A stretch of DNA of 64,000 nt from Verrucomicrobiaceae bacterium (GCA_028293825.1 JAQGNY010000026.1:62001-126000); one strand, 5' to 3'. Numbered from the stretch's first letter, positions 21,999-35,636 are shown. Numbers and translations are program-made. The notes: generated by a model not told the origin, from the sequence alone.

Positions 21999-22844
21999 TT
22001 ATGAATCAGCGTCGGTGCTAGCGTCGTTCTCCGCTTTAGTTTTACGCCACACCAGCGGGTACAGCGCCTGCTCCAGCCAGCCGACTTCCGCTCCCGGCAA
22101 CCCGTATTGCGCGGGCCGCCCCTGCGGGTGATGGATAGTGCCGAATAGAAAATCGTAGAAGCTGAAAAACACCGCGAAGTTGCGGTAGCTTTTGCCATCG
22201 CGTCCATAGCCATGATGGGTGTGATGCATACCGGGCGTCACTACAACGTGCTCGATAAGGCGCAATACGCGCGCGGCTCGGGGGCGCCGGCGCAGCCAGT
22301 CGTCCCAGCGAAAATCGCTGTGCGTAAAAATATTCCAGAACATGATCACCAGAATTGAAACTGCCGCGGCCTGCGTCATACCCAAATAAATCGCCAAACC
22401 GAGCACCCAACCGTGCGGCGTGACGAACGTCCAGAACACATTGACGCGCCAAAATACCGAGATATTCATAAAGCTGGCGCTGTGATGGGTGCGATGCAGC
22501 CGATACAGGAACGGATGCTTTTTGGGGTTGTGCGCCATGCGATGCACCCAGTAAAAACAAAACTCGGTGGTCAACAACACCAACGGAATTCCGGACCACA
22601 ACGGTATGGCGCTGAGCGCTCCCGCGTAAGCCGGCAGCAGTAACGCAAATAAATGCGCGATCAATAAACCCGCCAGCGGGCGCATCACGCTCATACCGAC
22701 CAACATGCAGGTCGCGGTCGTCAGCACATCGTGCTTGGTGAAAAGTGTTTTCAACCGGCCGGCGCACAGCTCGGCCACCAAAACCACACCCATCACCGAG
22801 AAAATCACCCCATTGGCCTGATTGACCACATCGTTGCTCGTCAT
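21999..22844 (-). CDS. Sterol desaturase/fatty acid hydroxylase superfamily protein
   Basis: A 281-residue integral membrane di-iron enzyme. The histidine clusters of the superfamily are present: FYWVHRMAHNPKKH (about residue 100), LHRTHHSASFMN (about 118-123), and a late GMHHTHHGYGRDG near residue 205. At least four hydrophobic segments are visible. Members hydroxylate or desaturate sterols, carotenoids, fatty acids or ether lipids. The start is ATG 22844 (MTSNDVVNQANG). A perfect 23-base palindrome lies 20 bases upstream and the divergent TetR gene follows, so substrate-induced derepression is likely. The product's substrate is unknown. Confidence 0.87.
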   Translation of the reverse strand: MTSNDVVNQANGVIFSVMGVVLVAELCAGRLKTLFTKHDVLTTATCMLVGMSVMRPLAGLLIAHLFALLLPAYAGALSAIPLWSGIPLVLLTTEFCFYWVHRMAHNPKKHPFLYRLHRTHHSASFMNISVFWRVNVFWTFVTPHGWVLGLAIYLGMTQAAAVSILVIMFWNIFTHSDFRWDDWLRRRPRAARVLRLIEHVVVTPGMHHTHHGYGRDGKSYRNFAVFFSFYDFLFGTIHHPQGRPAQYGLPGAEVGWLEQALYPLVWRKTKAENDASTDADS

Positions 22845-22863
22845 CGCGCATCTCACCCTTGAT

Positions 22864-22886
22864 AGAAACGAAACCGTTTCGTTTCT
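22864..22886. promoter_or_regulatory. Perfect palindromic operator, probable TetR binding site
   Basis: An 11-base arm AGAAACGAAAC, one central base and the exact inverse GTTTCGTTTCT form a 23-base perfect inverted repeat. It lies 20 bases upstream of the desaturase-family start and 114 bases before the TetR start. Size, symmetry and position are those of a TetR-family operator controlling both divergent genes. Confidence 0.75.
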
Positions 22887-22999
22887 AAAGATAGTGCAGC
22901 GCAACGGGGCCGTCGACCACCTTGCGTGTGTGCAATGCTTTACCCGCACCGACAGGTACTCCAAGCTAGCGCCTTTCCTTTAGCCGGATCGTTACGTCA

Positions 23000-23629
23000 G
23001 TGGACATCGACACCAAACCTAATCCCGCCTCGCGGCTATCGCCGGAACGCTACGCCCATTTACTCGCGATCGCCGCCGAGGTGTTTCTCGCGCGCGGGCT
23101 GGGAAACACAACCATCGAGCAAATCGCGCAGCTTGCAGGTATCAGCAAAGCCACGATCTACCGGCGTTTTCGCAACAAGGAAGAATTGTTCGAGGAAGTG
23201 ATTCTAACCGTCACCACTGAAATGGCGCAGGCACTCGATGCTATAGAGCTAAAAGTCGCCGCGCCGGAATTGACCTTGCGCGCGGCGGCGCAGGCGATCA
23301 ACGCATCATTGCGGCTGCCGAGGCACGTCGAAGTTATGCGCGCGCTGATCGCGGAGGCATCGCGCCAACCGGAATTGGTCAAGCATGCGCGCCTGCGCAT
23401 GGTCGCGACGCTGACCGGAAAGCTAAACGAATATTTCCAGCAACTGATTGATGCGGGCATCATGGTGAGCACTTACTCTCAGCAAACTGCAGTGAGCTTT
23501 GTGTTCCTGGCCAGCGGCGGACTGCGTCCTTTATTGAATGCCACTGCGGATCAAGTCGATGACGAGCGCCGGCTGGAGGCCGATCTGCAAATGTTCCTGC
23601 GCGGCTGCGGGCTTCGCGCCGAGCTTTAA
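23000..23629 (+). CDS. TetR/AcrR-family transcriptional regulator
   Basis: A 209-residue dimeric repressor. The start codon is GTG at 23000 (protein MDIDTKPNP). The N-terminal helix-turn-helix spans about residues 18-62: LLAIAAEVFLARGLGNTTIE, QIAQLAGISKATIYRRFRNK. The C-terminal part is a variable helical ligand-binding domain. It is divergent from the desaturase-family gene with a perfect palindromic operator between the two, so it most likely represses that gene and itself. The ligand is unknown; a lipid or sterol-like substrate of the neighbour would be logical but is inference. Confidence 0.9.
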   Translation: MDIDTKPNPASRLSPERYAHLLAIAAEVFLARGLGNTTIEQIAQLAGISKATIYRRFRNKEELFEEVILTVTTEMAQALDAIELKVAAPELTLRAAAQAINASLRLPRHVEVMRALIAEASRQPELVKHARLRMVATLTGKLNEYFQQLIDAGIMVSTYSQQTAVSFVFLASGGLRPLLNATADQVDDERRLEADLQMFLRGCGLRAEL

Positions 23630-23919
23630 AGTACTTCACTGTGGTTTAAGTTTGGGGCTGATTGCTGCCGCAACTGCGACCGACTACGCCAAACGCTCTG
23701 CGGCGAGCCGATTATAGATAGCCGCAAACATGAGCGCGAAATTGCTCAGTATCATTCAGTCTATTGCGCCATATCGCCTTTGCACCAGATTGGCGCTAGC
23801 ATCGTCGCTGCTTTCGAAAGTCTGAATTTTCATTGCCCGGATCTGTGGATATCAGTTATCGCTTGCAAAAGCCTGGCGAAGGGATCGTCGACAGTTCGGC
23901 CTAATCTCGGAGATTGGTC
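23630..23919. other. Upstream region of the PEP-CTERM array
   Basis: A gap of 290 bases without a credible gene. I looked for a -24/-12 sigma54 promoter, expected in some PEP-CTERM systems, and found no convincing GG-N10-GC element. The ribosome-binding site CGGAG at 23908-23912 serves the first array gene. Confidence 0.35.
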
Positions 23920-25821
23920 ATGTCGGCTCGTTGCTCCACCGTTCTGCGCCCCACCTCTTTTCCACGTTTCAACTCACACCTTTCATCAGCAACCGTCGCC
24001 CTGATTCTGTCCGCCGCCGTTATGCCTGCTTTTGCTGTCGATGCCACCGATGTCGGCGCGGCGGGTGCAGCCGGCGCCAGCGGCGTGTTGGGAAAAGCCG
24101 GCGGCAACGGTAAAAACTCGCAGGCAGGTTTGGGCAGCAGCGACTTTTTCAACAACGTAAAAGCGACCGGCGGGCAGGGCGGCAATGGTGGGTCGAGCTT
24201 GCCGCTATTGCCGGGCGGTAACGGGGGAAAAGGCGGCGCGGCGAGCGCCACTCTGCAAACCGGCAATCAGGATTTTCCGACCGATATCGAATCGCAAGGC
24301 GCGGGTACCGTTGCGGCCACCGGTGGCAAGGGCGGGAATGGCGGCTCAGGCTTGCTGCCCGGTAATGGCGGCGCGGGTGGCGCGGCGGCGGCGCAAGGAA
24401 CGGATACCGGCACCACTAACTTCGATTCACTCGCCAGCTCCTCACTGCAGGTTGACGCCAGCGGCGGCGCCGGTGGCAGCGGACGCAATGGCGGCGCGGG
24501 TGGCGCCAGCACCGCGCAAAGCACCATCAATCTGCAGACAACTACCGGAGCCTCATCAAGCGCCACCGCGCAAGGTGGCGTCGGCGGCAACGCTGTACTG
24601 AGTGGCGGCAAAGGCGGCAGCGCCAATGCCGACGCGTCTTTAACTGCCTTCAGTTATCCGTCCGACAGCTATGTCACCGCCGTGGCGAAAGGCGGCAACG
24701 GCGGCAACTCGGCAACCGGGTTGAACGGCAATGGCGGCGCGGCGACGGCAACCAGCGGCGGCGATTTTTACGCGCGCGACTTTGGCCTGACCAGCTCCGC
24801 CACGGCGGTCGGCGGCGCCAGTGGTCTGGGTGGATTACCGCTTCAGGGTAACGGCGGCGACGCCATCGCGACAGCCAGCGGCAGCGCGCACAACGCGGCT
24901 TACATCAATTCGCAGAGCTCGGCGCAGGGTGGCGATGGCGTGTTGCGCGGCGGCAATGCCATCGCCAACGCCTCGGCCAGCGCCGATATGTTCGGCAACG
25001 CCAGCGCACAAGCCAGCGGCGGTGCCGGTAAACAAGCGGGCGCCGCGATTGCCACCGCCACCGTCAGCAACGGCTTTTTAGATACCACCGCCAACGCCGT
25101 CGCCAATTACACGGGTGCGTTCGTGCGCCAGGTCTCGGCGCGCGGCGAAACCTTCGCCGTCGAAAACCAAACCGCTTCGACCATCTACACACAAGCGCGC
25201 GTCGGCGATACCAGCTCGATAATGACGGCGGCGCCCGCGCCGGCAGCCGACACCAGCCTGATTGCCCGCGCCATCGCGCCGACCAAAGCCGAAGCCGCTA
25301 CCGCTCTGGCCGGCAATACCACGCTCAAAAATGCGTTCGCCGGCTGCAGCGTTTGGGGGCTGGGTGAGTTCGGCACCGGCGGCGGTTTGTTCGATTTCAA
25401 CAGCGCTTCCACGTCGTACACGTTCGACATCAACACGCTCGCCGACCCGCAACATCTGTGGCTGGGACTGCTCGATTCGAACCTGCCGAGCGCTACCACC
25501 GGCAACTTCCATTTCAGCATCGCCGGCGAAGGCACCACGTTGTTCGAGCACGATTTTACCGGCTCGGACTTCCTGAGCTACTTCGACGACCGCCTGTTCG
25601 ATCTCGGCACATGGAAAAATCTGGTCGGCAGCGATGGTCTGTTCAACCTCGACGTGTCCTTTTCGGGCTATGTGCCGAAAATCGATTTCGCCTTTGGCGA
25701 GCGGGCAGAAGCGAGCGCGGTGCCGGAACCATCGGCATTGATGTTGATTATTCTTGGCGTACTGGGACTATGGATTTCGCGCGACGGATTGCGGCTGGGC
25801 CGGTTTGGCCATAAGGAATAA
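23920..25821 (+). CDS. Glycine-rich PEP-CTERM protein, array copy 1
   Basis: A 633-residue predicted exported protein. I chose ATG 23920 (MSARCSTVLRP) over a TTG two codons earlier because CGGAG sits 7 bases before it. The signal peptide is SATVALILSAAVMPAFA (cleavage about residue 39). A short Gly-X-Y stretch (GAAGAAGASGVLGKAGGNG) follows. A long region to about residue 400 is built from GGNGG/GGKGG/GNGGAGG blocks with Ala-Thr-Ser spacers. A linker precedes a conserved domain (about 477-595: SVWGLGEF, HLWLGLLDSNLP, FHFSIAGEGTTLFEHDF, SYFDDRLFDLG). The tail VPEPSALMLIILGVLGLWI plus basic residues (from 601) is a PEP-CTERM signal. A single Cys sits in FAGCSVWG. Role unknown; surface or matrix protein by inference. 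Confidence 0.85.
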   Translation: MSARCSTVLRPTSFPRFNSHLSSATVALILSAAVMPAFAVDATDVGAAGAAGASGVLGKAGGNGKNSQAGLGSSDFFNNVKATGGQGGNGGSSLPLLPGGNGGKGGAASATLQTGNQDFPTDIESQGAGTVAATGGKGGNGGSGLLPGNGGAGGAAAAQGTDTGTTNFDSLASSSLQVDASGGAGGSGRNGGAGGASTAQSTINLQTTTGASSSATAQGGVGGNAVLSGGKGGSANADASLTAFSYPSDSYVTAVAKGGNGGNSATGLNGNGGAATATSGGDFYARDFGLTSSATAVGGASGLGGLPLQGNGGDAIATASGSAHNAAYINSQSSAQGGDGVLRGGNAIANASASADMFGNASAQASGGAGKQAGAAIATATVSNGFLDTTANAVANYTGAFVRQVSARGETFAVENQTASTIYTQARVGDTSSIMTAAPAPAADTSLIARAIAPTKAEAATALAGNTTLKNAFAGCSVWGLGEFGTGGGLFDFNSASTSYTFDINTLADPQHLWLGLLDSNLPSATTGNFHFSIAGEGTTLFEHDFTGSDFLSYFDDRLFDLGTWKNLVGSDGLFNLDVSFSGYVPKIDFAFGERAEASAVPEPSALMLIILGVLGLWISRDGLRLGRFGHKE

Positions 25822-25824
25822 ATC

Positions 25825-27828
25825 ATGCGTCTGCGCCCTGTTAACGCACTTCCGCAGCAGCCGTTAGCGAAAGGGAAACACTCGTTCGCAACTGACCTGC
25901 GCTTAAAAGCCGGGGCCGCGTTGCCTTTTCATGTGCTGGCAGCGGACGCCACCGATAACGGCGCGGCGGGCGCGACCGGTGCCAGCGGTGTTATCGGCAA
26001 AGTCGGCGGCAGCGGTCAGGCCGCACAAGCGGGTTTGGCCAGCAGCGATTTCACCAACACCGTTAGCACCAGCGGCGGAAAAGGCGGCAACGGTGGCGCG
26101 AGCTTCCCGCTGCTACCGGGCGGCAATGGCGGTAAAGGCGGCGCGGCGGCGGCGACGTTAAACACGGCTGGCCACGTTTTTCCGACCGATGCGAGCGTGC
26201 AGGTCATCGACTCAGTCACCGCACGCGGCGGCGCGGGTGGTAATGGCGGCGCTGGTTTGATCGCCGGCAAAGGCGGCGCCGGCGGCACAGCCACTGCCAA
26301 CGGCGCCAACGCCGGCGCGGCATCGGGCGAAACGGCAGTCGATTTTGCCTCGCAAATCAATGCAATCGGCGGCAATGGCGGCGCCGGAATCACTGGCGGC
26401 GCGGGCGGCAACGGTAACGCTGTCGGCAGCCAAATTCCCGGATCAACCACAGCCAGCAGCACCACTACTGCGCAGGCGCAGGGCGGCGACGGCGGCGCCG
26501 CTGTTTTGAGCGCAGGCAATGGCGGGGATGCACGCGCTGCGGTCACATTGGGCGTCACCGGCAACCCGAGCTACAGCACCATTACCGCCACCGCGACCGG
26601 CGGCAGTGGCGGCGCATCGCAAACCGGGCTGCATGGCAACGGCGGCACAGCCAGCGCCGTGGTCAGCAGCGAATTATCAAGTGGCAATATCGGCACCAGC
26701 TTGTCGGCCACAGCTATCGGCGGCGCCAGCGGCAGTAACTCCAGCGCCTCCTTATTGCTGCGCGGTAACGGTGGCGATGCCACCGCGACAAGCATCAGCG
26801 GCAACGGTAATCCAGCGGCAACTTTTGCGGATTCACACGCTGCGGCGCAAGGCGGCGCGGGCGCGGTGCGCGGTGGCAATGCCGTCTCCACGGCGAGCAA
26901 TCGGGCTTTTTTGAGCAGCGAAGCCAGTGCGCAAGCCAGCGCGGGTGCCGGCAAATTGGCCGGCGCTGCGGTGGCGACGGCGCAAGCCATCAGCCTCGGC
27001 GAAGGCGGCATCGCGACAGCGAGCGCTAACTCCGCCGGCACCTTCGTCAGACAAGTAACCGCCAGCGGTAGGTCGTATGATCGCGGTTCGTCGACGCCGA
27101 TCGGTACTTATGCGCAGGCCAGCGTCGGCAATAGCGATGCGCTGTTGGCGTCAGTTGCGCCGCCTTCGGCCGACGCCACATTGACCGTGCACGCCGCCGC
27201 TCCGACCGCCGCGCAAACTGCGGCGGCGCTGCAAGGCAACAGCCACATCGCGGGCCAATTTGCCGGCGGCTCGGTATGGGGATTGGGGTCTGTGGATGCC
27301 GGCAACCCGACCGGCCAAGAGGAGTCGCAGTACACCTTCAACGACGCCTCGATTTCCTACACCCTCGATGTCGCCACCATCGCCAACCCGCAACACCTGT
27401 GGCTGGGCTTGTTCGACTCGAACCTGGCGGACGACAGCATCGGCAATTTTCACTTCAGCATCGCCGGCGAAGGTGCCGCGCTGTTCGAGCACGATTTCTC
27501 CGGCTCGGATTTTCTCACCTATTTCGATGACCGCATTTTCGATCTGGGCAGCTGGGCCAATCTGGTCAGCAGCGACGGTCTGTTCAACCTCGACGTCTCG
27601 TTCTCAGGCTACGTGCCGCGACTCGAATTCGCGGTCGGTGAAATCACCTCATTATCGCCGTCAGTGCCGGAACCCTCGGCGCTGGCGCTTATTTTGGCGG
27701 GGCTGCTTAGTTTGGCGATGTCGCAAACTAAGCGGGCAGTATCGCGAAAAGGATTGCCGCAACGGCGGCGAATGAGGGAGAAAAGTCATGTGGTCGCCAT
27801 CGAGCAGAACGGGCTTAAACCTTTTTAA
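25825..27828 (+). CDS. Glycine-rich PEP-CTERM protein, array copy 2 (atypical ends)
   Basis: A 667-residue paralogue starting 3 bases after copy 1. It shares the Gly-X-Y opening (NGAAGATGASGVIGKVGG), the segment SFPLLPGGNGGKGGAA, and the C-terminal domain (SVWGLGSV, HLWLGLFDSNLADDSIGN, FHFSIAGEGAALFEHDF). VPEPSALALILAGLLSLAM starts at 614. Two things are odd. The signal peptide is poor: charged residues and His interrupt it (RLKAGAALPFHVLAAD). The protein also runs about 34 residues past the PEP-CTERM helix with many Arg/Lys, overlapping copy 3 by 41 bases, whereas siblings stop about 10 residues after the helix. Export and sorting may be impaired. Confidence 0.8.
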   Translation: MRLRPVNALPQQPLAKGKHSFATDLRLKAGAALPFHVLAADATDNGAAGATGASGVIGKVGGSGQAAQAGLASSDFTNTVSTSGGKGGNGGASFPLLPGGNGGKGGAAAATLNTAGHVFPTDASVQVIDSVTARGGAGGNGGAGLIAGKGGAGGTATANGANAGAASGETAVDFASQINAIGGNGGAGITGGAGGNGNAVGSQIPGSTTASSTTTAQAQGGDGGAAVLSAGNGGDARAAVTLGVTGNPSYSTITATATGGSGGASQTGLHGNGGTASAVVSSELSSGNIGTSLSATAIGGASGSNSSASLLLRGNGGDATATSISGNGNPAATFADSHAAAQGGAGAVRGGNAVSTASNRAFLSSEASAQASAGAGKLAGAAVATAQAISLGEGGIATASANSAGTFVRQVTASGRSYDRGSSTPIGTYAQASVGNSDALLASVAPPSADATLTVHAAAPTAAQTAAALQGNSHIAGQFAGGSVWGLGSVDAGNPTGQEESQYTFNDASISYTLDVATIANPQHLWLGLFDSNLADDSIGNFHFSIAGEGAALFEHDFSGSDFLTYFDDRIFDLGSWANLVSSDGLFNLDVSFSGYVPRLEFAVGEITSLSPSVPEPSALALILAGLLSLAMSQTKRAVSRKGLPQRRRMREKSHVVAIEQNGLKPF

Positions 27829-29707
27829 ACGCAAATTTGCAGCGCATGCGCTCGCTCTAACGGCCCTGACCTGCTGCTTGCCGGCACTGGCCGCCGATGT
27901 CGCTAATACCGGTGCAGCCGGCGCCAATGGTGCGAGCGGGTTGCACGGCAAACCCGGCGGTAGCGGCGGCGATGGCCAAGCCACTCTGCTCAGCAGCGAT
28001 CACCTCAACACCGCAAGCGCCGCCGGTGGCATCGGCGGAAACGGCGGCTCAAGCTTTTTAATTTTCCCCAGTGGTGCCGGCGGCAAAGGCGGTAAAGCGA
28101 CGGTTGATCTGCAATCCGCCGGCCAGGCCGACTTCGAAGAAGACACAGATGGCAGCGCTATCGCCACGGCGATCGGCGGCGCTGGCGGCAATGGCGGCGC
28201 CGGCGGCGCGGCTCAGGCTCGCGGCTCGGCTGGTGAACACCCCGATTTATTCAACAACACGCCGAACTTCTCGCTGCTGGTTAACGCGACAGGAGGCAAG
28301 GGCGGCAATGGTTTGAACGGTGGCGCGGGCGGCGCCAGCACCGCGACCGGTAACTTTATCGCGCCGAGCGACCAAGCGACGGTGCAGACAACATCACTCG
28401 GCGGCGCCGGCGGCAGCGCAATTTTGCAGGGCGGCAAAGGCGGCAGCGCCATCGCGCACAGTCAATATGACAGCGGCGGCCAGCCCGCATTTAATCATTC
28501 CAATGCTATCGCTATCGGCGGTAACGGGGGCGGTTCGAGCAGCGGACGCAACGGCAACGGCGGCGCAGCAATCGCTACCGCCGATGGCAAACGCGCTTCC
28601 CGCGGCGAAGGTGTCCAAGTCGAAGCGACCGCCAAAGGCGGCGCCAGCGGCGGCACAGTCAATCCGCTTTCGCCGCGCGGAAATGGTGGCGATGCCTACG
28701 CCACCGCGACCGCTGCAGCCTTTAATCTGCCGACCGATGCCAGCGCGACCAGCACCGCGCAGGGCGGCGATGGCGTGGCACGCGGCGGCAATGCGGTCGC
28801 CAGCGCGGTCTCGTCGGCCCCAGTCGGCGGCACCGCGCACGCCCAAGCCACCGGCGGTGCCGGTAAAAATGCCGGCGCGGCTATCGCGACTTCAACCGCC
28901 ACTAATGACGATGGGTTCGGCACGCCGATGGCATCGGCAACGGCCATTTCTCAGGGATCGTTCGTGCGCAAAGTGGACGTACAGGCCGCGATTACCGAGC
29001 CGTTCACACCCGAGCCGGACCGGTTTTTCGCCGGTACGGTTTACGCCCAAGCGCGCGTGGGAGATACCACCGGTATTCTCGCCGCCGCGCCGAACGCCAC
29101 TCAAAATCCAGGCTTAGTAGCGCGGGCGAGCGCACCGACTGCGGCCGAAGCAAGCGTTGCCTTGGCGGGGAACACAACTGTTGCGCAGACTTTCGCCGCT
29201 GGTTCGGTGTGGGCACTCGGTGATTTCGGCACCGTAAACAGCGGCGATTCCGCCGGAACGCCAGTGACGAACATTTTTGAAAATATCCACGCCACTTCGT
29301 CCTACACCTTCGATATCAGCGGTATCGGCAACCCGCAGCAACTCACTTCGCAGCATCTGTGGCTGGGCCTACTCGATTCGGATTTGCCCGCCGACAGCAT
29401 CGGCAATTTTCATTTCAGCATCGCCGGCGGTGGTCAGGCGCTGTTCGATCACGACTTTACCGGCTCGGATTTTCTCAACTTTTTTGACGATCGCGTCTTT
29501 GATCTCGGCAGTTGGGCGGCGCTCGCCGGCGCCGATGGTCTGCTCCAACTCGACGTGGCTTTTGCTGGCGACGTTAGCGGAATTGAGTTTGCGCTCGGGA
29601 CAAACGGCAATGCCGTGCCCGAGCCATCGATGCTCATGCTGTTCGGCGCCGGGTTAGTAGGATTGCTGATGGCACGGAAACGTTCGCCGACGGTTCGGCT
29701 GCAATAA
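27788..29707 (+). CDS. Glycine-rich PEP-CTERM protein, array copy 3
   Basis: A 639-residue paralogue whose start (27788) lies inside the tail of copy 2, after a GGGAG ribosome-binding site. The signal peptide is strong: FAAHALALTALTCCLPALAAD. Gly-X-Y repeats follow (GAAGANGASGLHGKPGGSGG), then GGNGG blocks, interrupted by an acidic stretch (DFEEDTDG). The C-terminal domain reads SVWALGDFG, QHLWLGLLDSDLPADSIGN, FHFSIAGGGQALFDHDF. It carries a small insert (NPQQLTSQHLW) relative to the others. The PEP-CTERM tail is VPEPSMLMLFGAGLVGLLMA plus RKRSPTVRLQ, from residue 610. No catalytic motif is visible. Confidence 0.84.
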   Translation: MWSPSSRTGLNLFKRKFAAHALALTALTCCLPALAADVANTGAAGANGASGLHGKPGGSGGDGQATLLSSDHLNTASAAGGIGGNGGSSFLIFPSGAGGKGGKATVDLQSAGQADFEEDTDGSAIATAIGGAGGNGGAGGAAQARGSAGEHPDLFNNTPNFSLLVNATGGKGGNGLNGGAGGASTATGNFIAPSDQATVQTTSLGGAGGSAILQGGKGGSAIAHSQYDSGGQPAFNHSNAIAIGGNGGGSSSGRNGNGGAAIATADGKRASRGEGVQVEATAKGGASGGTVNPLSPRGNGGDAYATATAAAFNLPTDASATSTAQGGDGVARGGNAVASAVSSAPVGGTAHAQATGGAGKNAGAAIATSTATNDDGFGTPMASATAISQGSFVRKVDVQAAITEPFTPEPDRFFAGTVYAQARVGDTTGILAAAPNATQNPGLVARASAPTAAEASVALAGNTTVAQTFAAGSVWALGDFGTVNSGDSAGTPVTNIFENIHATSSYTFDISGIGNPQQLTSQHLWLGLLDSDLPADSIGNFHFSIAGGGQALFDHDFTGSDFLNFFDDRVFDLGSWAALAGADGLLQLDVAFAGDVSGIEFALGTNGNAVPEPSMLMLFGAGLVGLLMARKRSPTVRLQ

Positions 29708-29726
29708 CGGAAATACGGAGAAAATC

Positions 29727-31706
29727 ATGCGCACAGTCAGCTCCATTCACCGTAAGCGTCACCCCGTTACACAAATGCTTGGCACTAGCGCGCTGGCGTT
29801 GGTTTTAGCGTCCTCTGCCATCACCGTGAGTGCCGATGATGATACCGATCCCGATAATGTGATCAGTACCGGCGCGCCGGGCGTCAATGGCCAATCCGGC
29901 AAGAATGGTGCGGCTGGCAAAGGAGTTAACGCGGCGGTCACCAGCACTAACATCTACACCTCGGCCTATGCAGACTTTCGCACGTCAGCCACCGTAACCG
30001 CCGGAAAAGGAGGCAATGGCGGGCCAAGCACCGCCAAGGTTGCCGCCGGCAATGGCGCCAAAGGCGGTGACGGGAAGGCCAGCGTGACGATGCAAAATCA
30101 GATTCAGCAACCCAATTACCCGGAGATTACGATTCACGAAGATGTATCGGTACGGGCAGGCGACGGCGGTGACGGCGGCATTGGCCCGGTACAGGGCAAA
30201 GGTGGAGCAGGCGGCTTTGCGAATGCCAAGGCGGTTGATAGAAACGTCGACCAAACTTATTCGGAAGCCAACCACACCGAGGCGGAAGTGGTCGATGTGC
30301 TTAGCGTGAGCGGTGTCGGTGGCAATGGTGGGGCCGGGCGCGATGGTGGGGCCGGAGGCGGCAGTACCTCATCGAGCTTCGCAGCGACGACGATAAATAC
30401 TCAATCAAGCAGCAGCGCGCACGGGGGCAGTGGCGGCAATGCCTTAAACCAGGGTGGCGTCGGCGGCAACGCAACGGCGGACGTCAGCGCTTCCGCTCAC
30501 TCTTATAATTATTGGCCCGAAGGTGCCCATGCAACCGCTATTGGCGGCAATGGGGGTACGTCGGCGACCGGGCTGAACGGCGATGGCGGCAGGGCCGTTG
30601 CAACTGTGAGCGGTGGCGCCACTGGGCCGCACGGCGGCGATCCAGTCTCACTCAACGCACAGGCCATAGGTGGAAACAGCGGCACCGGTCTGGGATCTGG
30701 TCTCGCGAGCGGCAAAGGCGGCGATGCGTCCGCCACGGTCACTGCCATTTCCCGTGAATATTTCAGGTGGCTGGGTGCTGCGCCTATAGCTATAGCGCAA
30801 GGAGGTAATGGCGTAACTCGCGGTGGTAACGCTATCTCCAGCGCAACCAGCAGTGCAGACGATGGAGGCATTGCCACTGCGAAGGCCAGCGGCGGCGGCG
30901 GTAAAATTGCCGGCGCCGCAATTGCCACCGCATCCGTGAACAATCGCGAGGCTTTTAGCCCCTCAGTCACGGCTACCGCCAATTTCGCCGGGCCTTTCGT
31001 CAAGCAAGTAATCACCAGCGCCACCAGCGACCCTTTACCCTATGACGATTTGGGCGATGGGTTCAGCAATGTGTCGGCGCTGTATGCGCAGTCACGCGTT
31101 GGTGATACCTCCGGTATCTTGGCACAGGCGCCACAACCGCCGAACAGCAAATACTTGTCCATCCAGGCTGCTGCGCCTACTTCCGTCGAAGCTACCCAGT
31201 TTCTCGCCGGAAATAGCCTCAGCACCACTTTTGCGGCGGGGGAGGTTTGGGGCATCGGCGGTTTTAAATCCGGCATGGGTAGCAGCGGCAGCTTCTCCGC
31301 CACCGCCTCGTACTTGTTCGACACTAAAGCCGTGAAGAACCCAGATGATTTATGGCTTGGCGTACTAAATACCAACTATTTCGGCCGTTTTGAATTCAGC
31401 GTCGCGAGCGGCGGTAATACGGTGTTCGACCGCAGCTTCACGTCGGCTGATTTCAACGGGAATGCGATTGACTTGGGTGACTGGGACAGCCTGGTTGGCA
31501 GCGATGGATTGCTCAAGTTCGATATTTCGTTTTCCCAACTTTCCTACAGCACTGACTTCGCCTTCGGCAATGCACCGGCGGCGAGTGCAAAAGCTGCGGC
31601 TCTAGAGTCCTCAGTGCCAGAGCCATCCGCCTTGGTCCTGTTCTGCGCAGGGCTAATAGGATTAGCTATTTCTCGTAAAAAATCATCCGCCGCTCGGCTC
31701 AGCTAG
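29727..31706 (+). CDS. Glycine-rich PEP-CTERM protein, array copy 4
   Basis: A 659-residue paralogue 19 bases after copy 3, with GGAGAAAATC before the ATG. The signal peptide is GTSALALVLASSAITVSA. Mature sequence begins with an acidic DDDTDPDN insert, then GAPGVNGQSGKNGAAGKG. The glycine-rich region uses AGKGGNGGPS, AAGNGAKGGDGK and GVGGNGGAGRDGGAGGG. The C-terminal domain is shorter: VWGIGGFKSG, DDLWLGVLNTNYFGRF, FDRSFTSADF. The linker FGNAPAASAKAAALESS and the tail VPEPSALVLFCAGLIGLAIS plus RKKSSAARLS (from 630) are nearly the same as copy 5. Copies 4 and 5 therefore form a sub-group. Confidence 0.84.
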   Translation: MRTVSSIHRKRHPVTQMLGTSALALVLASSAITVSADDDTDPDNVISTGAPGVNGQSGKNGAAGKGVNAAVTSTNIYTSAYADFRTSATVTAGKGGNGGPSTAKVAAGNGAKGGDGKASVTMQNQIQQPNYPEITIHEDVSVRAGDGGDGGIGPVQGKGGAGGFANAKAVDRNVDQTYSEANHTEAEVVDVLSVSGVGGNGGAGRDGGAGGGSTSSSFAATTINTQSSSSAHGGSGGNALNQGGVGGNATADVSASAHSYNYWPEGAHATAIGGNGGTSATGLNGDGGRAVATVSGGATGPHGGDPVSLNAQAIGGNSGTGLGSGLASGKGGDASATVTAISREYFRWLGAAPIAIAQGGNGVTRGGNAISSATSSADDGGIATAKASGGGGKIAGAAIATASVNNREAFSPSVTATANFAGPFVKQVITSATSDPLPYDDLGDGFSNVSALYAQSRVGDTSGILAQAPQPPNSKYLSIQAAAPTSVEATQFLAGNSLSTTFAAGEVWGIGGFKSGMGSSGSFSATASYLFDTKAVKNPDDLWLGVLNTNYFGRFEFSVASGGNTVFDRSFTSADFNGNAIDLGDWDSLVGSDGLLKFDISFSQLSYSTDFAFGNAPAASAKAAALESSVPEPSALVLFCAGLIGLAISRKKSSAARLS

Positions 31707-31756
31707 GCAGGGGCGAAAGTCATCGTACCGGTACCTCAACCCGTTGGAGAACAGCC

Positions 31757-33718
31757 ATGCGTACTTTTCCATCTATCGGACATACCCAACATCCAGTTAC
31801 ACACAGCCTCAACGCCAGCGCGCTGGCTTTGGTTTTAGCGGCGACGGTTTCCTTTCCTGTTTTTGCGGCCGACTCGACCAGCACCGGCGCGCCCGGCGCC
31901 AACGGTGTGCCGGGTAAGAACGGCAGTGCCGGCAAAGGCGGCGCAGTCAACCTCATCAGTCACGACCTTAACAACAGCGCTATTGCGACTGCAGGTAACG
32001 GCGGCAATGGTGGCGTCAGTTCGCCGAAGGCGGCGGCGGGCAATGGCGCCAAAGGCGGCGAGGCCAAATCCGTGCTGACGCTGAAAGGCCAAAACTATGT
32101 ATCGGATGAGGGTTTCGTGCGGATTTACGGCACGGTGACCGCAACGGGCGGGAATGGCGGCAATGGTGGACTCGGCCCGGTGCTGGGTAATGGCGGCGCG
32201 GGCGGGCTCGCCAACGCAAAAAGCCTCGACTACGGCAGCTCGGTGATGGGTGACTTTTATCCCGATGTGCTCACGCAAACGACGGTAAACGGTGTCGGCG
32301 GCAATGGCGGCGCGGGCAAAAATGGGGGCGCAGGCGGCGGCAGCACCACCTCGAATGCCGAATTTACCGAATTTCCCAGCACGCAGGACACCACGTCGCG
32401 CGGCGGTACCGGCGGCAACGGATTGAATCAAGGCGGTAATGGCGGCAATGCCGTCGCCGCAATAACGTCAAACAAAACCTATGCAGAGACGCACGGCGCC
32501 TCAGCACTGGCCATTGGTGGCAATGGCGGCGATTCGGCAATCGGCTTAAACGGCAATGGCGGCAAAGCGACTGCGACCGTGCAGGCACCGCTGGCTGTAG
32601 GAATCCGCGGTGACTACGATCCGATTTATACAACGGCCAAAGCCGTCGGCGGTAATAGCGGCGTCGGCACGGTGGCAAGTCCCGGTCAGCCGAGCGGCAA
32701 CGGCGGGGATGCCTTTGCCACTGCGGCCTCCCACATATTGGTTGGCAGAGATTCTGGAGATAAATTCCTAGCCGCCACGGCGCAGGGCGGTAACGGCACC
32801 AGTCGCGGCGGCAATGCGGTCGCCACCGCCATTAATATTGCCGAAAACTACGGCAATGCCACATCGGTTGCTACCGGCGGTGGCGGCAAAATTGCCGGCG
32901 CGGCGGTAGCAACTTCCACGGTGGATAGCTATGGCACCGACGCCATCGCAGCCGCCACCGCCAAATTTGCTGGCCCGTTTGTTAAGCAAGTAGTGACAAC
33001 CGCTTCGATTACTACCGTGAACGATGATCCTGAGTTCCCCACTCTGCCCTATCACGAGACCCTCTACGCGCAGTCCCGCGTCGGCGATACCACCAACCTG
33101 GTAGCAACCACGCCGCAGCCGGTGGGCACCAAATATCAGGAAGTGAAGGCAGCCGCCCCCACTGCGCAGGAAGCGGCGCAATTTTTGGCCGGCAACAGCC
33201 AGATCCAAACGACCTTTACAGCGGGCGAAGTGTGGGGCATCGGTGAATTCAAGACCGGTCGAGATATATATGGCGGGATTGCCACTGCGTCCTATGTTTT
33301 CGACACCAAAACCGCAGCCCACAACGGCGACCTATGGCTGGGATTGCTCGACGCCACCATTGCGCCGCATAGCTCGCAGAACTCCTTTGGCTTCAACGTG
33401 ACGAGCGGTAACACAACGTTATTCAGCCGCCATTTTTCTGCCACTGATTTCCTAACGTACTTCGACGACAACCCCATCGACCTCGGCGCATGGAAAAGCC
33501 TGGTCGGCAGCGATGGCTTGTTCAAGCTGGATATATCGTTCGCGGGCAGTACCTCCGGCCTGGACTTCGCCTTTGGTAATGCGCCGGCGGCGAGCGCAAA
33601 AGCGGCGGCGCTGGAGTCGTCCGTGCCCGAACCCTCAGCGCTCGTCTTGGTCTGCGCAGGATTGTTGGGGCTGATGATTTCCCGCAAAAAATCGTCCGCA
33701 ACTTGTCTAGCCAGCTAA
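31757..33718 (+). CDS. Glycine-rich PEP-CTERM protein, array copy 5
   Basis: A 653-residue paralogue, closest to copy 4. The N-terminus starts MRTFPSIGHTQHPVTHSL, as copy 4 starts MRTVSSIHRKRHPVTQML. A signal peptide follows (ASALALVLAATVSFPVFAAD), then GAPGANGVPGKNGSAGKGG. The glycine-rich part includes AAGNGAKGGEAK and GTVTATGGNGGNGGLGPVLG. The C-terminal domain has VWGIGEFKTG, DLWLGLLDATIAPHSSQN, FSRHFSATDFLTYFDD. The linker before the tail matches copy 4, and the PEP-CTERM tail is VPEPSALVLVCAGLLGLMIS plus RKKSSATCLAS (from 623), with an unusual Cys near the end. The ribosome-binding site is GGAGAA. Confidence 0.84.
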   Translation: MRTFPSIGHTQHPVTHSLNASALALVLAATVSFPVFAADSTSTGAPGANGVPGKNGSAGKGGAVNLISHDLNNSAIATAGNGGNGGVSSPKAAAGNGAKGGEAKSVLTLKGQNYVSDEGFVRIYGTVTATGGNGGNGGLGPVLGNGGAGGLANAKSLDYGSSVMGDFYPDVLTQTTVNGVGGNGGAGKNGGAGGGSTTSNAEFTEFPSTQDTTSRGGTGGNGLNQGGNGGNAVAAITSNKTYAETHGASALAIGGNGGDSAIGLNGNGGKATATVQAPLAVGIRGDYDPIYTTAKAVGGNSGVGTVASPGQPSGNGGDAFATAASHILVGRDSGDKFLAATAQGGNGTSRGGNAVATAINIAENYGNATSVATGGGGKIAGAAVATSTVDSYGTDAIAAATAKFAGPFVKQVVTTASITTVNDDPEFPTLPYHETLYAQSRVGDTTNLVATTPQPVGTKYQEVKAAAPTAQEAAQFLAGNSQIQTTFTAGEVWGIGEFKTGRDIYGGIATASYVFDTKTAAHNGDLWLGLLDATIAPHSSQNSFGFNVTSGNTTLFSRHFSATDFLTYFDDNPIDLGAWKSLVGSDGLFKLDISFAGSTSGLDFAFGNAPAASAKAAALESSVPEPSALVLVCAGLLGLMISRKKSSATCLAS

Positions 33719-33755
33719 ACCCCCTAGTTAGTTTAAAAAAGGGAAGGAGAAAATC

Positions 33756-35636
33756 ATGCGCGCATTCAGCTTTATGAACAGTAACCGCACCGCACCGACT
33801 CGGTTAAATGCGACTTGTTGCGCGCTCGCGCTCGCCATAGCTGCCGTCTCTCTGCCCACATGGGCGACCGATGCCAGCGACACCGGCAACCCAGGCGCCA
33901 ATGGAGCGAGCGGGATCATCGGTAAAAAAGGCGGCAACGGCGCGGGCGCGCAGACGAATCTTGTCACCGTCGATTACTTCAACACGGCAACGGCCACAGC
34001 GGGAAAAGGCGGCAACGGTGGCAATAGCTTTCCGTTGTTGCCCGGCGCCAACGGTGGTAATGGCGGCACCGCGAAAGCGGCGCTGCAATCGGGCGGGCAG
34101 CAGTACAACTACGACCACGATGTAGTGAGCAGCAGTGTTAATGCCAGTGGGGGCGACGGCGGTAACGGCGGCAGCGGTTTGTTGCCGGGCAATGGCGGAA
34201 CCGGCGGCGCTGCGCATGCAACTGGCGCCGATACCGGCGGCGTGGTGCCGGAGGATTTTTCCGCACCAGCCGTGTTGGTGGATGTTAACGCCGCCGCCGG
34301 CAATGGTGGCAGCGGGCGCAATGGCGGGGCCGGCGGGGCGAGTACCGCAGCGGCAAGTTTGTCCGGCAGTCCCGCGTCGCCCGGCTCGGTGGACGCGACC
34401 GCGCGCGGCGGCGCGGGCGGCAATGCGCTATTGAGCGCCGGTAAAGGCGGCGCCGCCACGGCCACTACTGTCTATAACAACGGCGGCTTTCCCAGTGACG
34501 ATTTCGCCGGCGCGACCGCCATTGGTGGCAATGGCGGCACCTCGACCACCGGTCTTAACGGTAATGGCGGCAATGCCAGCGCCACCGCGTCGGGAACCCA
34601 CAGCGCCCGCGATTTGGAATTGACCATCGAAGCCCACGCCACGGGCGGCAATAGCGGTACCAATGGCAATTTGCGCGGCAATGGCGGCGATGCTTACGCC
34701 AGCGCCAGCGGCCATGCCGAAAACGTGGCCGCTGCGACTCCGTCCGCTGTGGCGCAGGGCGGCAACGGCGTAGTTAGAGGTGGCAACGCCGTCGCCAATG
34801 CCGATGCGACTTCCGACTTTATGTTCGCCAGCGCCACCGCCGCAGCCAGCGGCGGCGCCGGTCAACACGCTGGGGCGGCAGTAGCGACGGCTACCAGCAC
34901 GGTGCCTTTTCTCAGCAATGGCGTGACGGCCAGCGCTAACTATGCCGGCGATTTCGTCCGCAATGTGACGGCCTTCGGCGGCAGTTTCAGTCTGGATAAT
35001 CCGGTGACCACAACGCTGTATGCGCAGGCGCGGGCGGGCGATACCAGCGGTCTTTTGCCGTTAGCCACGGCCAAACCGAGTGAAACAAATGGTTTTGTAA
35101 CTGCTGTGGCGCCGACCCAGGCCGAAGCGGCGGCCACACTGGCTGGCAATCCCACTATCGCCAGTGCCTTTGCCGGCGGCAGCGTCTGGGGAATCGGCGC
35201 GATTGGCAATGCAACCGGCGCCGATTCGTTCGGCGCCGGCAGCTCCTTCACGTTCGACATCAGCGACATCGCCAACCCGCAGCATCTATTGCTGGGCCTG
35301 TTCGACTCGAATTTGCCGAGCGACAGCACCGGCGATTTTCACTTCAGCATTAGCGGCGAGGGCACGACCTTGTTCGACCGCGATTTCACCGGCGCGGATT
35401 TCCTGACCTACTTCGATGATCGCGTATTCGACTTGGGCAACTGGGCCAGCCTGGTCGGCGCTGACGGTTTGTTAGATTTGGATGTGTCGTTCTCCGGCTT
35501 CGCCCCGGAAATCCAATTCGCCGTCGGTCAGAAGGCCTCCGCCGTGCCGGAACCCACAACGCTCGCGTTAGCCGTCGCCGGGCTATTCGGTATTTTCATT
35601 GCGCGGCGCCGGGGCCGAGCGCAGACCACCCGTTAA
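33756..35636 (+). CDS. Glycine-rich PEP-CTERM protein, array copy 6
   Basis: A 626-residue paralogue and the last of the array, preceded by GGAAGGAGAAAATC. The signal peptide is CCALALAIAAVSLPTWATD. The Gly-X-Y opening is GNPGANGASGIIGKKGGNG. The segment SFPLLPGANGGNGGTAK places it with copies 1 to 3 rather than 4 and 5. The C-terminal domain reads SVWGIGAIGN, HLLLGLFDSNLPSDSTGD, FHFSISGEGTTLFDRDF, TYFDDRVFDLGNW. The PEP-CTERM tail is VPEPTTLALAVAGLFGIFIA plus RRRGRAQTTR (from 597). A 6-bp hairpin without T-run (35707-35722) lies in the 199-base gap after it; I see no strong terminator. Confidence 0.84.
   Translation: MRAFSFMNSNRTAPTRLNATCCALALAIAAVSLPTWATDASDTGNPGANGASGIIGKKGGNGAGAQTNLVTVDYFNTATATAGKGGNGGNSFPLLPGANGGNGGTAKAALQSGGQQYNYDHDVVSSSVNASGGDGGNGGSGLLPGNGGTGGAAHATGADTGGVVPEDFSAPAVLVDVNAAAGNGGSGRNGGAGGASTAAASLSGSPASPGSVDATARGGAGGNALLSAGKGGAATATTVYNNGGFPSDDFAGATAIGGNGGTSTTGLNGNGGNASATASGTHSARDLELTIEAHATGGNSGTNGNLRGNGGDAYASASGHAENVAAATPSAVAQGGNGVVRGGNAVANADATSDFMFASATAAASGGAGQHAGAAVATATSTVPFLSNGVTASANYAGDFVRNVTAFGGSFSLDNPVTTTLYAQARAGDTSGLLPLATAKPSETNGFVTAVAPTQAEAAATLAGNPTIASAFAGGSVWGIGAIGNATGADSFGAGSSFTFDISDIANPQHLLLGLFDSNLPSDSTGDFHFSISGEGTTLFDRDFTGADFLTYFDDRVFDLGNWASLVGADGLLDLDVSFSGFAPEIQFAVGQKASAVPEPTTLALAVAGLFGIFIARRRGRAQTTR

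Follow-up and report, generated by a model that had tools for sequence, protein, structure and literature searches.

Six tandem PEP-CTERM paralogues with a predicted polyglycine-II bundle and a predicted beta-sandwich domain in a Verrucomicrobiaceae bacterium

Introduction

PEP-CTERM proteins are numerous, and to our knowledge the majority of them have neither a recognised domain nor a known role. Six genes for such proteins stand side by side in a 64,000-nucleotide stretch of DNA from a Verrucomicrobiaceae bacterium (GCA_028293825.1, JAQGNY010000026.1:62001-126000), which is called the window here. Their products share a long glycine-rich region, which raises the questions of what such a region folds into and what a cell would do with six versions of it.

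Gene organization and divergence of the six copies

Six open reading frames on the + strand at 23920-35636 of the window encode paralogues of 626-667 residues, each with a PEP-CTERM tail, exactly where a reading made from the sequence alone (the sequence-only reading) had placed them. Copy 1 (23920..25821; 633 residues counted from the ATG at 23920, which comes six bases after the TTG listed as the start) has a putative signal peptide, a glycine-rich region of predicted polyglycine-II (PGII) and beta structure, a predicted beta-sandwich domain and the PEP-CTERM tail. It is followed by copy 2 (25825..27828, 667 residues), copy 3 (27788..29707, 639 residues), in which part of the second glycine hairpin is missing, copy 4 (29727..31706, 659 residues), copy 5 (31757..33718, 653 residues) and copy 6 (33756..35636, 626 residues). 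The successive intergenic gaps are 3, -41 (an overlap), 19, 50 and 37 bp, and GGAG/AAGGA-type ribosome-binding sites precede most of the six starts. Because the genes run head to tail with tight gaps and ribosome-binding sites before most starts, they very likely form a single transcript. The 41 bp overlap between copies 2 and 3 (27788-27828) extends the C terminus of copy 2 into an unusually long basic tail.

The copies align end to end, with 44-54% protein identity to copy 1 and about 140 invariant columns. Pairwise identity places the C-terminal domain among the best conserved parts (38-69%) and the signal peptide last; copies 4 and 5 are the closest pair in both signal peptide and tail. 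At the DNA level the copies are 50-60% identical, and the longest identical tract is 22 bp. dN is lower than dS in all 15 copy pairs, with dS near saturation and the pairwise tests correspondingly blunt. Glycine is identical in all six copies at 58 of 88 positions, compared with 36 of 264 for other residues. Because dN stays below dS in every pair and glycines are far more often invariant, the shared pattern is not due to chance. By these sequence measures the copies are old paralogues that are separately maintained under purifying selection, and DNA identity, shared tracts and dN/dS among the six give no hint that duplication or gene conversion was recent or that selection has favoured diversity. 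Antigenic variation, proposed earlier as a reason for the tandem array, is thus unsupported, with dN < dS in 15 of 15 pairs and no shared DNA tract above 22 bp. Gene dosage, proposed alongside it, is a weak explanation for copies that are only about half identical.

Export, sorting and regulation

Hydrophobic N-terminal segments are present in copies 1 and 3-6; in copy 2 the signal peptide looks weak by eye, as had been noted before. The PEP-CTERM family PF07589 of Pfam matches all six tails, five of them above the curated cut-off, and TIGR02595 of NCBIfam is likewise passed by five of the six. The tail of copy 2 falls below the Pfam cut-off (16.8 vs 20.7 bits) and above that of TIGR02595 (18.0 vs 16), and the reverse holds for copy 1. 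In copy 1 the tail, a VPEPS motif followed by a hydrophobic helix, lies at 25717..25782 (+), with PF07589 covering residues 602-623 and the helix of the model residues 606-627. A match of NF038129 to copy 4 disappeared once the tail was removed from the query. The earlier impression that these proteins are undescribed holds in that the families of Pfam (full-length proteins, E up to 1), NCBIfam and PHROG match the sorting tail alone.

Absence of any exosortase from the genome had been set as a refutation of the view that these are exosortase substrates; a genome search found one, of XrtA type. The genome (4.34 Mb in 56 contigs, 96% complete) holds a single PF09721 match (E 7e-47), which also scores above the cut-off for 8TM_EpsH. 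It is closest to XrtA, scoring 186.8 against an NCBIfam XrtA cut-off of 208 and thus below it, and passes the general exosortase cut-off. Around it lie genes for an XrtA-associated polysaccharide deacetylase, a FemAB protein, a chain-length determinant, a tyrosine autokinase and a glycosyltransferase, so that, judged from gene content, the exosortase sits in a complete XrtA-type EPS locus. PrsT, PrsR and PrsK are found together at L019:13637-16333 on contig C12, about 20 kb or less from the exosortase. Of 16 PEP-CTERM matches in the genome, the operon supplies six. The remaining ten are frames of only 69-284 residues, far shorter than the six paralogues, so that by length most of the exosortase cargo of the genome comes from the operon. 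Cleavage of the six tails by the exosortase is putative.

The smaller PEP-CTERM genes have features of their own. Two of them adjoin each other on contig C50 (L005/L014, G000:C50:22468-23099); one of this pair encodes only 69 residues, mostly signal peptide and sorting tail, and a second such mini-protein occurs at L010. The 284-residue protein at L006 (G000:C29) is rich in Pro, Thr and Ala and apparently disordered.

The operon is not adjacent to the EPS locus. The statement that no regulator or EPS gene flanks the operon survives in its second half, there being no EPS gene among the flanking genes tested, and fails in its first: immediately before the operon, and oriented the same way, comes a TetR-family gene (23000-23629). 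This gene is divergent from a fatty-acid-hydroxylase-like gene at 21999-22964 (-), with about 35 bp between them, and may serve that gene instead of the operon. PEP-CTERM genes under PrsR and sigma-54 carry a box ending in TTTACA and, about 63 nt further on, a sigma-54 site of the form GG-N10-GC (PMC1569441). Neither motif is found in the 289 bp ahead of copy 1 (23631..23919, +), and both are present, at -132 and -62, ahead of L003, a different PEP-CTERM gene of this genome. It follows that the operon is probably outside PrsK/PrsR control, as far as upstream motifs tell. A whole-genome scan for sigma-54 sites gave a count equal to that of its control.

Predicted structure of the glycine-rich region

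Autocorrelation of the glycine-rich region peaks at lag 3 for glycine and at lag 2 for alanine, and the sequence pattern is one of GGX helix stretches alternating with beta-strands rich in Ala and Thr. A unit of 30-51 residues, in the order strand, GGxGGxG, turn, GNGGxGG, strand and loop, recurs about eight times. Within the GGX stretches all six copies keep glycine at one phase almost without exception, and Asn, Lys, Ala, Asp or Ser fills the third position. An AlphaFold2 model based on the alignment of the six sequences has a pLDDT of 80.4 and a pTM of 0.81, with most of the glycine region above 90; it rests on six sequences, and AlphaFold can be over-confident on repeats. Residues 45-229 of copy 1 (24046..24600, +), which contain the period-3 invariant glycines, are modelled as a nine-helix PGII bundle core that superimposes on 7jjv, a springtail antifreeze protein of nine helices, with a Z score of 11.0 at 1.6 Å (112 of 126 residues). 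Part of the same segment matches the snow flea protein 2pne at 1.2 Å over 81 of 81 residues. The identity of 41-47% in these two alignments is mostly shared glycine and is no evidence of descent. The best structural match outside the glycine-bundle fold has a Z score of 6.3. In the model and in the alignment, the bundle continues through residues 230-398 (24601..25107, +), where the GGxG turns are shorter and the beta-hairpins, longer here, become dominant toward residue 400. Sequence searches of the PDB gave no match for the glycine region or for the C-terminal domain, and matches in BFVD were ignored at TM scores of at most 0.15.

The glycine-rich region is thus predicted to form a PGII bundle with beta-hairpins extending from its helices. 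Independent support for this fold comes from the sequences themselves, through the lag-3 glycine and lag-2 alanine periodicity, the invariance of the period-3 glycines and the nearly gap-free alignment of the PGII segments. The sequence-only reading had offered a PGII-like or a collagen-like filament. The former agrees with the AlphaFold model and its 1.6 Å match to a polyproline/polyglycine-II bundle, whereas the latter does not fit a model that is a compact two-layer bundle with beta-hairpins. Gly-X-Y spacing is confined to the 19 residues 48-66, which lie inside the bundle-aligned stretch.

The model might instead be an AlphaFold artefact on low-complexity repeats, the region being a flexible, disordered spacer that keeps the C-terminal domain off the cell. 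The low-complexity composition, about 24% Gly and 19% Ala, would suit a spacer, and AlphaFold had probably met similar structures, those of the snow flea antifreeze proteins being from 2008. However, segment lengths are fixed and glycines invariant despite high dS, which is unexpected for a free spacer, and a scrambled PE_PGRS segment lost its helices in simulation (PMC13243192). We therefore regard a disordered spacer as improbable.

Conservation differs along the predicted slab. Identity among the copies is 75% in the PGII segments (1% gaps), 36% in the strands and 21% in the hairpin loops (23% gaps). Because the loops are the least identical and are rich in gaps, variation falls mainly along the slab's hairpin edge. 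In the model the outward positions of the helices are mainly Asn, Lys, Asp and Ser with some Ala, and helices 3, 5 and 7 hold outward alanines. These alanines, together with a springtail antifreeze protein being the closest solved fold, might suggest an ice-binding or freeze-protection surface on the cell or in the matrix. However, collembolan antifreeze proteins present a flat outward face of Ala, Ser, Thr and Val (PMC10235112) in place of such polar residues, and the fold is also found in unrelated proteins of other roles, namely Obg and phage S16 gp38 (PMC8409303). Ice binding is accordingly disfavoured on the model and is the least credible of the readings considered here.

Predicted structure of the C-terminal domain

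Residues 386-599 of copy 1 (25069..25710, +), when folded alone, give a jelly-roll or beta-sandwich with a few short helices (pLDDT 80, pTM 0.81). The top Foldseek match is CBM61 (E 4e-5), followed by CBM51, CBM15, CBM22 and lectins. VIA-align returned a mix of adhesins, carbohydrate-binding modules and glycosidase domains with Z scores of at most 7.0, the carbohydrate-binding modules at about 5.4-6.3; scores in this range may reflect a common arrangement only and define no more than a fold class. Neither Pfam nor NCBIfam assigns the domain to a carbohydrate-binding family by sequence. The domain is thus predicted to be a beta-sandwich resembling carbohydrate-binding modules, and it may bind sugar.

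Proposed role of the six proteins

We consider it somewhat probable that the six proteins are matrix scaffold proteins or adhesins released by the exosortase, in which a rigid bundle presents a sugar-binding head. Six diverged substrates of the XrtA-type exosortase would be exported by Sec, their PEP-CTERM tails would be processed, and the proteins would be delivered to the outer surface or the exopolysaccharide matrix. The glycine-rich part would fold into a rigid slab of antiparallel PGII helix pairs whose ends continue as beta-hairpins, and the slab would hold up the C-terminal beta-sandwich, most likely in contact with matrix sugar. A single matrix scaffold or adhesin coat would thereby be built from six kinds of specialised subunit, which differ chiefly in the hairpin loops that they expose. 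This proposal is consistent with Aquincola flocs, because there a PEP-CTERM protein keeps EPS bound to the cells (PMC9850573). Against it stand the sub-threshold XrtA score of the exosortase, the position of the operon away from the EPS locus, the missing PrsR/RpoN-type site and the weak signal peptide and tail of copy 2. The gene arrangement, the tails, the sorting system in the genome and the pattern of selection are observed, both folds are predicted, and export, tail cleavage, sugar contact and the scaffold function are deduced. Of the steps that go beyond observation the fold prediction is the most secure, and the roles in sugar binding and in the matrix are the least.

The same features could serve a different purpose. 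The proteins may act as adhesins or receptors that recognise one particular partner cell or external surface, with the hairpin loops providing different binding specificities in the six copies. Such a role would suit loops that are the least conserved and most indel-rich parts, as well as the lectin/CBM-type fold of the C-terminal domain, and a glycine-rich polyproline-II (PPII) bundle does perform host recognition in phage S16 gp38 (PMC8409303). It is opposed by the lack of visible positive selection among the copies, a comparison blunted by the near-saturated dS, and we hold it to be a doubtful but serious alternative. A bolder form of the matrix proposal is more tentative still: hybrid slabs sorted by the exosortase, in which PGII helices pass straight into beta-hairpins, might be co-expressed in six versions and join, for example by stacking, to make a lattice or fibre of protein within the exopolysaccharide, and so constitute an undescribed class of matrix protein.

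Distribution

No second full-length member was found in 57 relatives, 369 class genomes and 398 phylum genomes, the class and phylum sets being samples with at most three candidates scored per genome. Searches of GTDB genome contigs with the C-terminal domain and with a query spanning the late glycine part and the middle region found no full-length relative, nor did searches of viral contigs (IMG/VR) and plasmids; a genome of the same genus, 89% complete, is also without the family. Weak relatives of the C-terminal domain alone occur in two genomes, in one of them joined to a VPLPA-type tail. Weak glycine matches in 13 genomes were set aside, being Obg GTPase in the two loci examined elsewhere in the order and presumably Obg in the rest. 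Because the collections searched are samples, the operon may belong to a family that is scarce or confined to certain lineages and need not be unique.

Comparison with known systems

The operon, if its predicted fold is right, ties PEP-CTERM proteins to a rare, rigid glycine fold whose best-known examples so far are springtail antifreeze proteins, the PE_PGRS proteins of mycobacteria, Obg and the tips of phage fibres. If true, this would suggest, in a form open to testing, how bacterial slime is stiffened or decorated by exosortase substrates, and structural studies would gain a natural series of six glycine-bundle variants.

The six proteins resemble known substrates of the PEP-CTERM/exosortase (XrtA/EpsH) system in having a VPEP motif, a hydrophobic helix and a basic tail, with a putative signal peptide that is weak in copy 2, in a genome with exosortase, EPS and Prs genes. 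They differ in gene arrangement: over 65% of PEP-CTERM genes form single-gene operons (PMC1569441), whereas six genes are joined here without an upstream PrsR/sigma-54 site. With the collembolan polyproline-II antifreeze proteins (7jjv, 2pne/3bog) the predicted model shares a two-layer bundle of left-handed glycine-rich helices at 1.2-1.6 Å; in contrast to them, the six copies would have beta-hairpins between helix pairs, an added beta-sandwich and sorting tail, and polar outward residues. Mycobacterial PE_PGRS proteins carry GGX/NGGAGG-type repeats predicted to form a PGII sandwich at the cell surface, sometimes before a C-terminal module (PMC9436101). The repeats and their predicted fold are alike in the six copies, which differ from PE_PGRS in secretion, in anchoring and in their beta-hairpin extensions; no N-terminal PE domain was found by Pfam in the full-length proteins (E up to 1), where only sorting-tail families match. 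Glycine-rich helix bundles have been described in Obg, phage S16 gp38, collembolan antifreeze proteins and acetophenone carboxylase (PMC8409303). The N-terminal domain of the Obg GTPase likewise combines a bundle of glycine-rich type-II helices with beta structure, and gp38 uses such a bundle for recognition (PMC8409303). Obg and gp38 are unrelated to the six proteins, and the likeness is limited to a local glycine motif. No report of a PEP-CTERM tail combined with a glycine-helix bundle was found in the open-access literature searched. The PEP-CTERM family and its sorting are thus already known, and what is new is the predicted bundle-plus-head architecture in six tandem copies.
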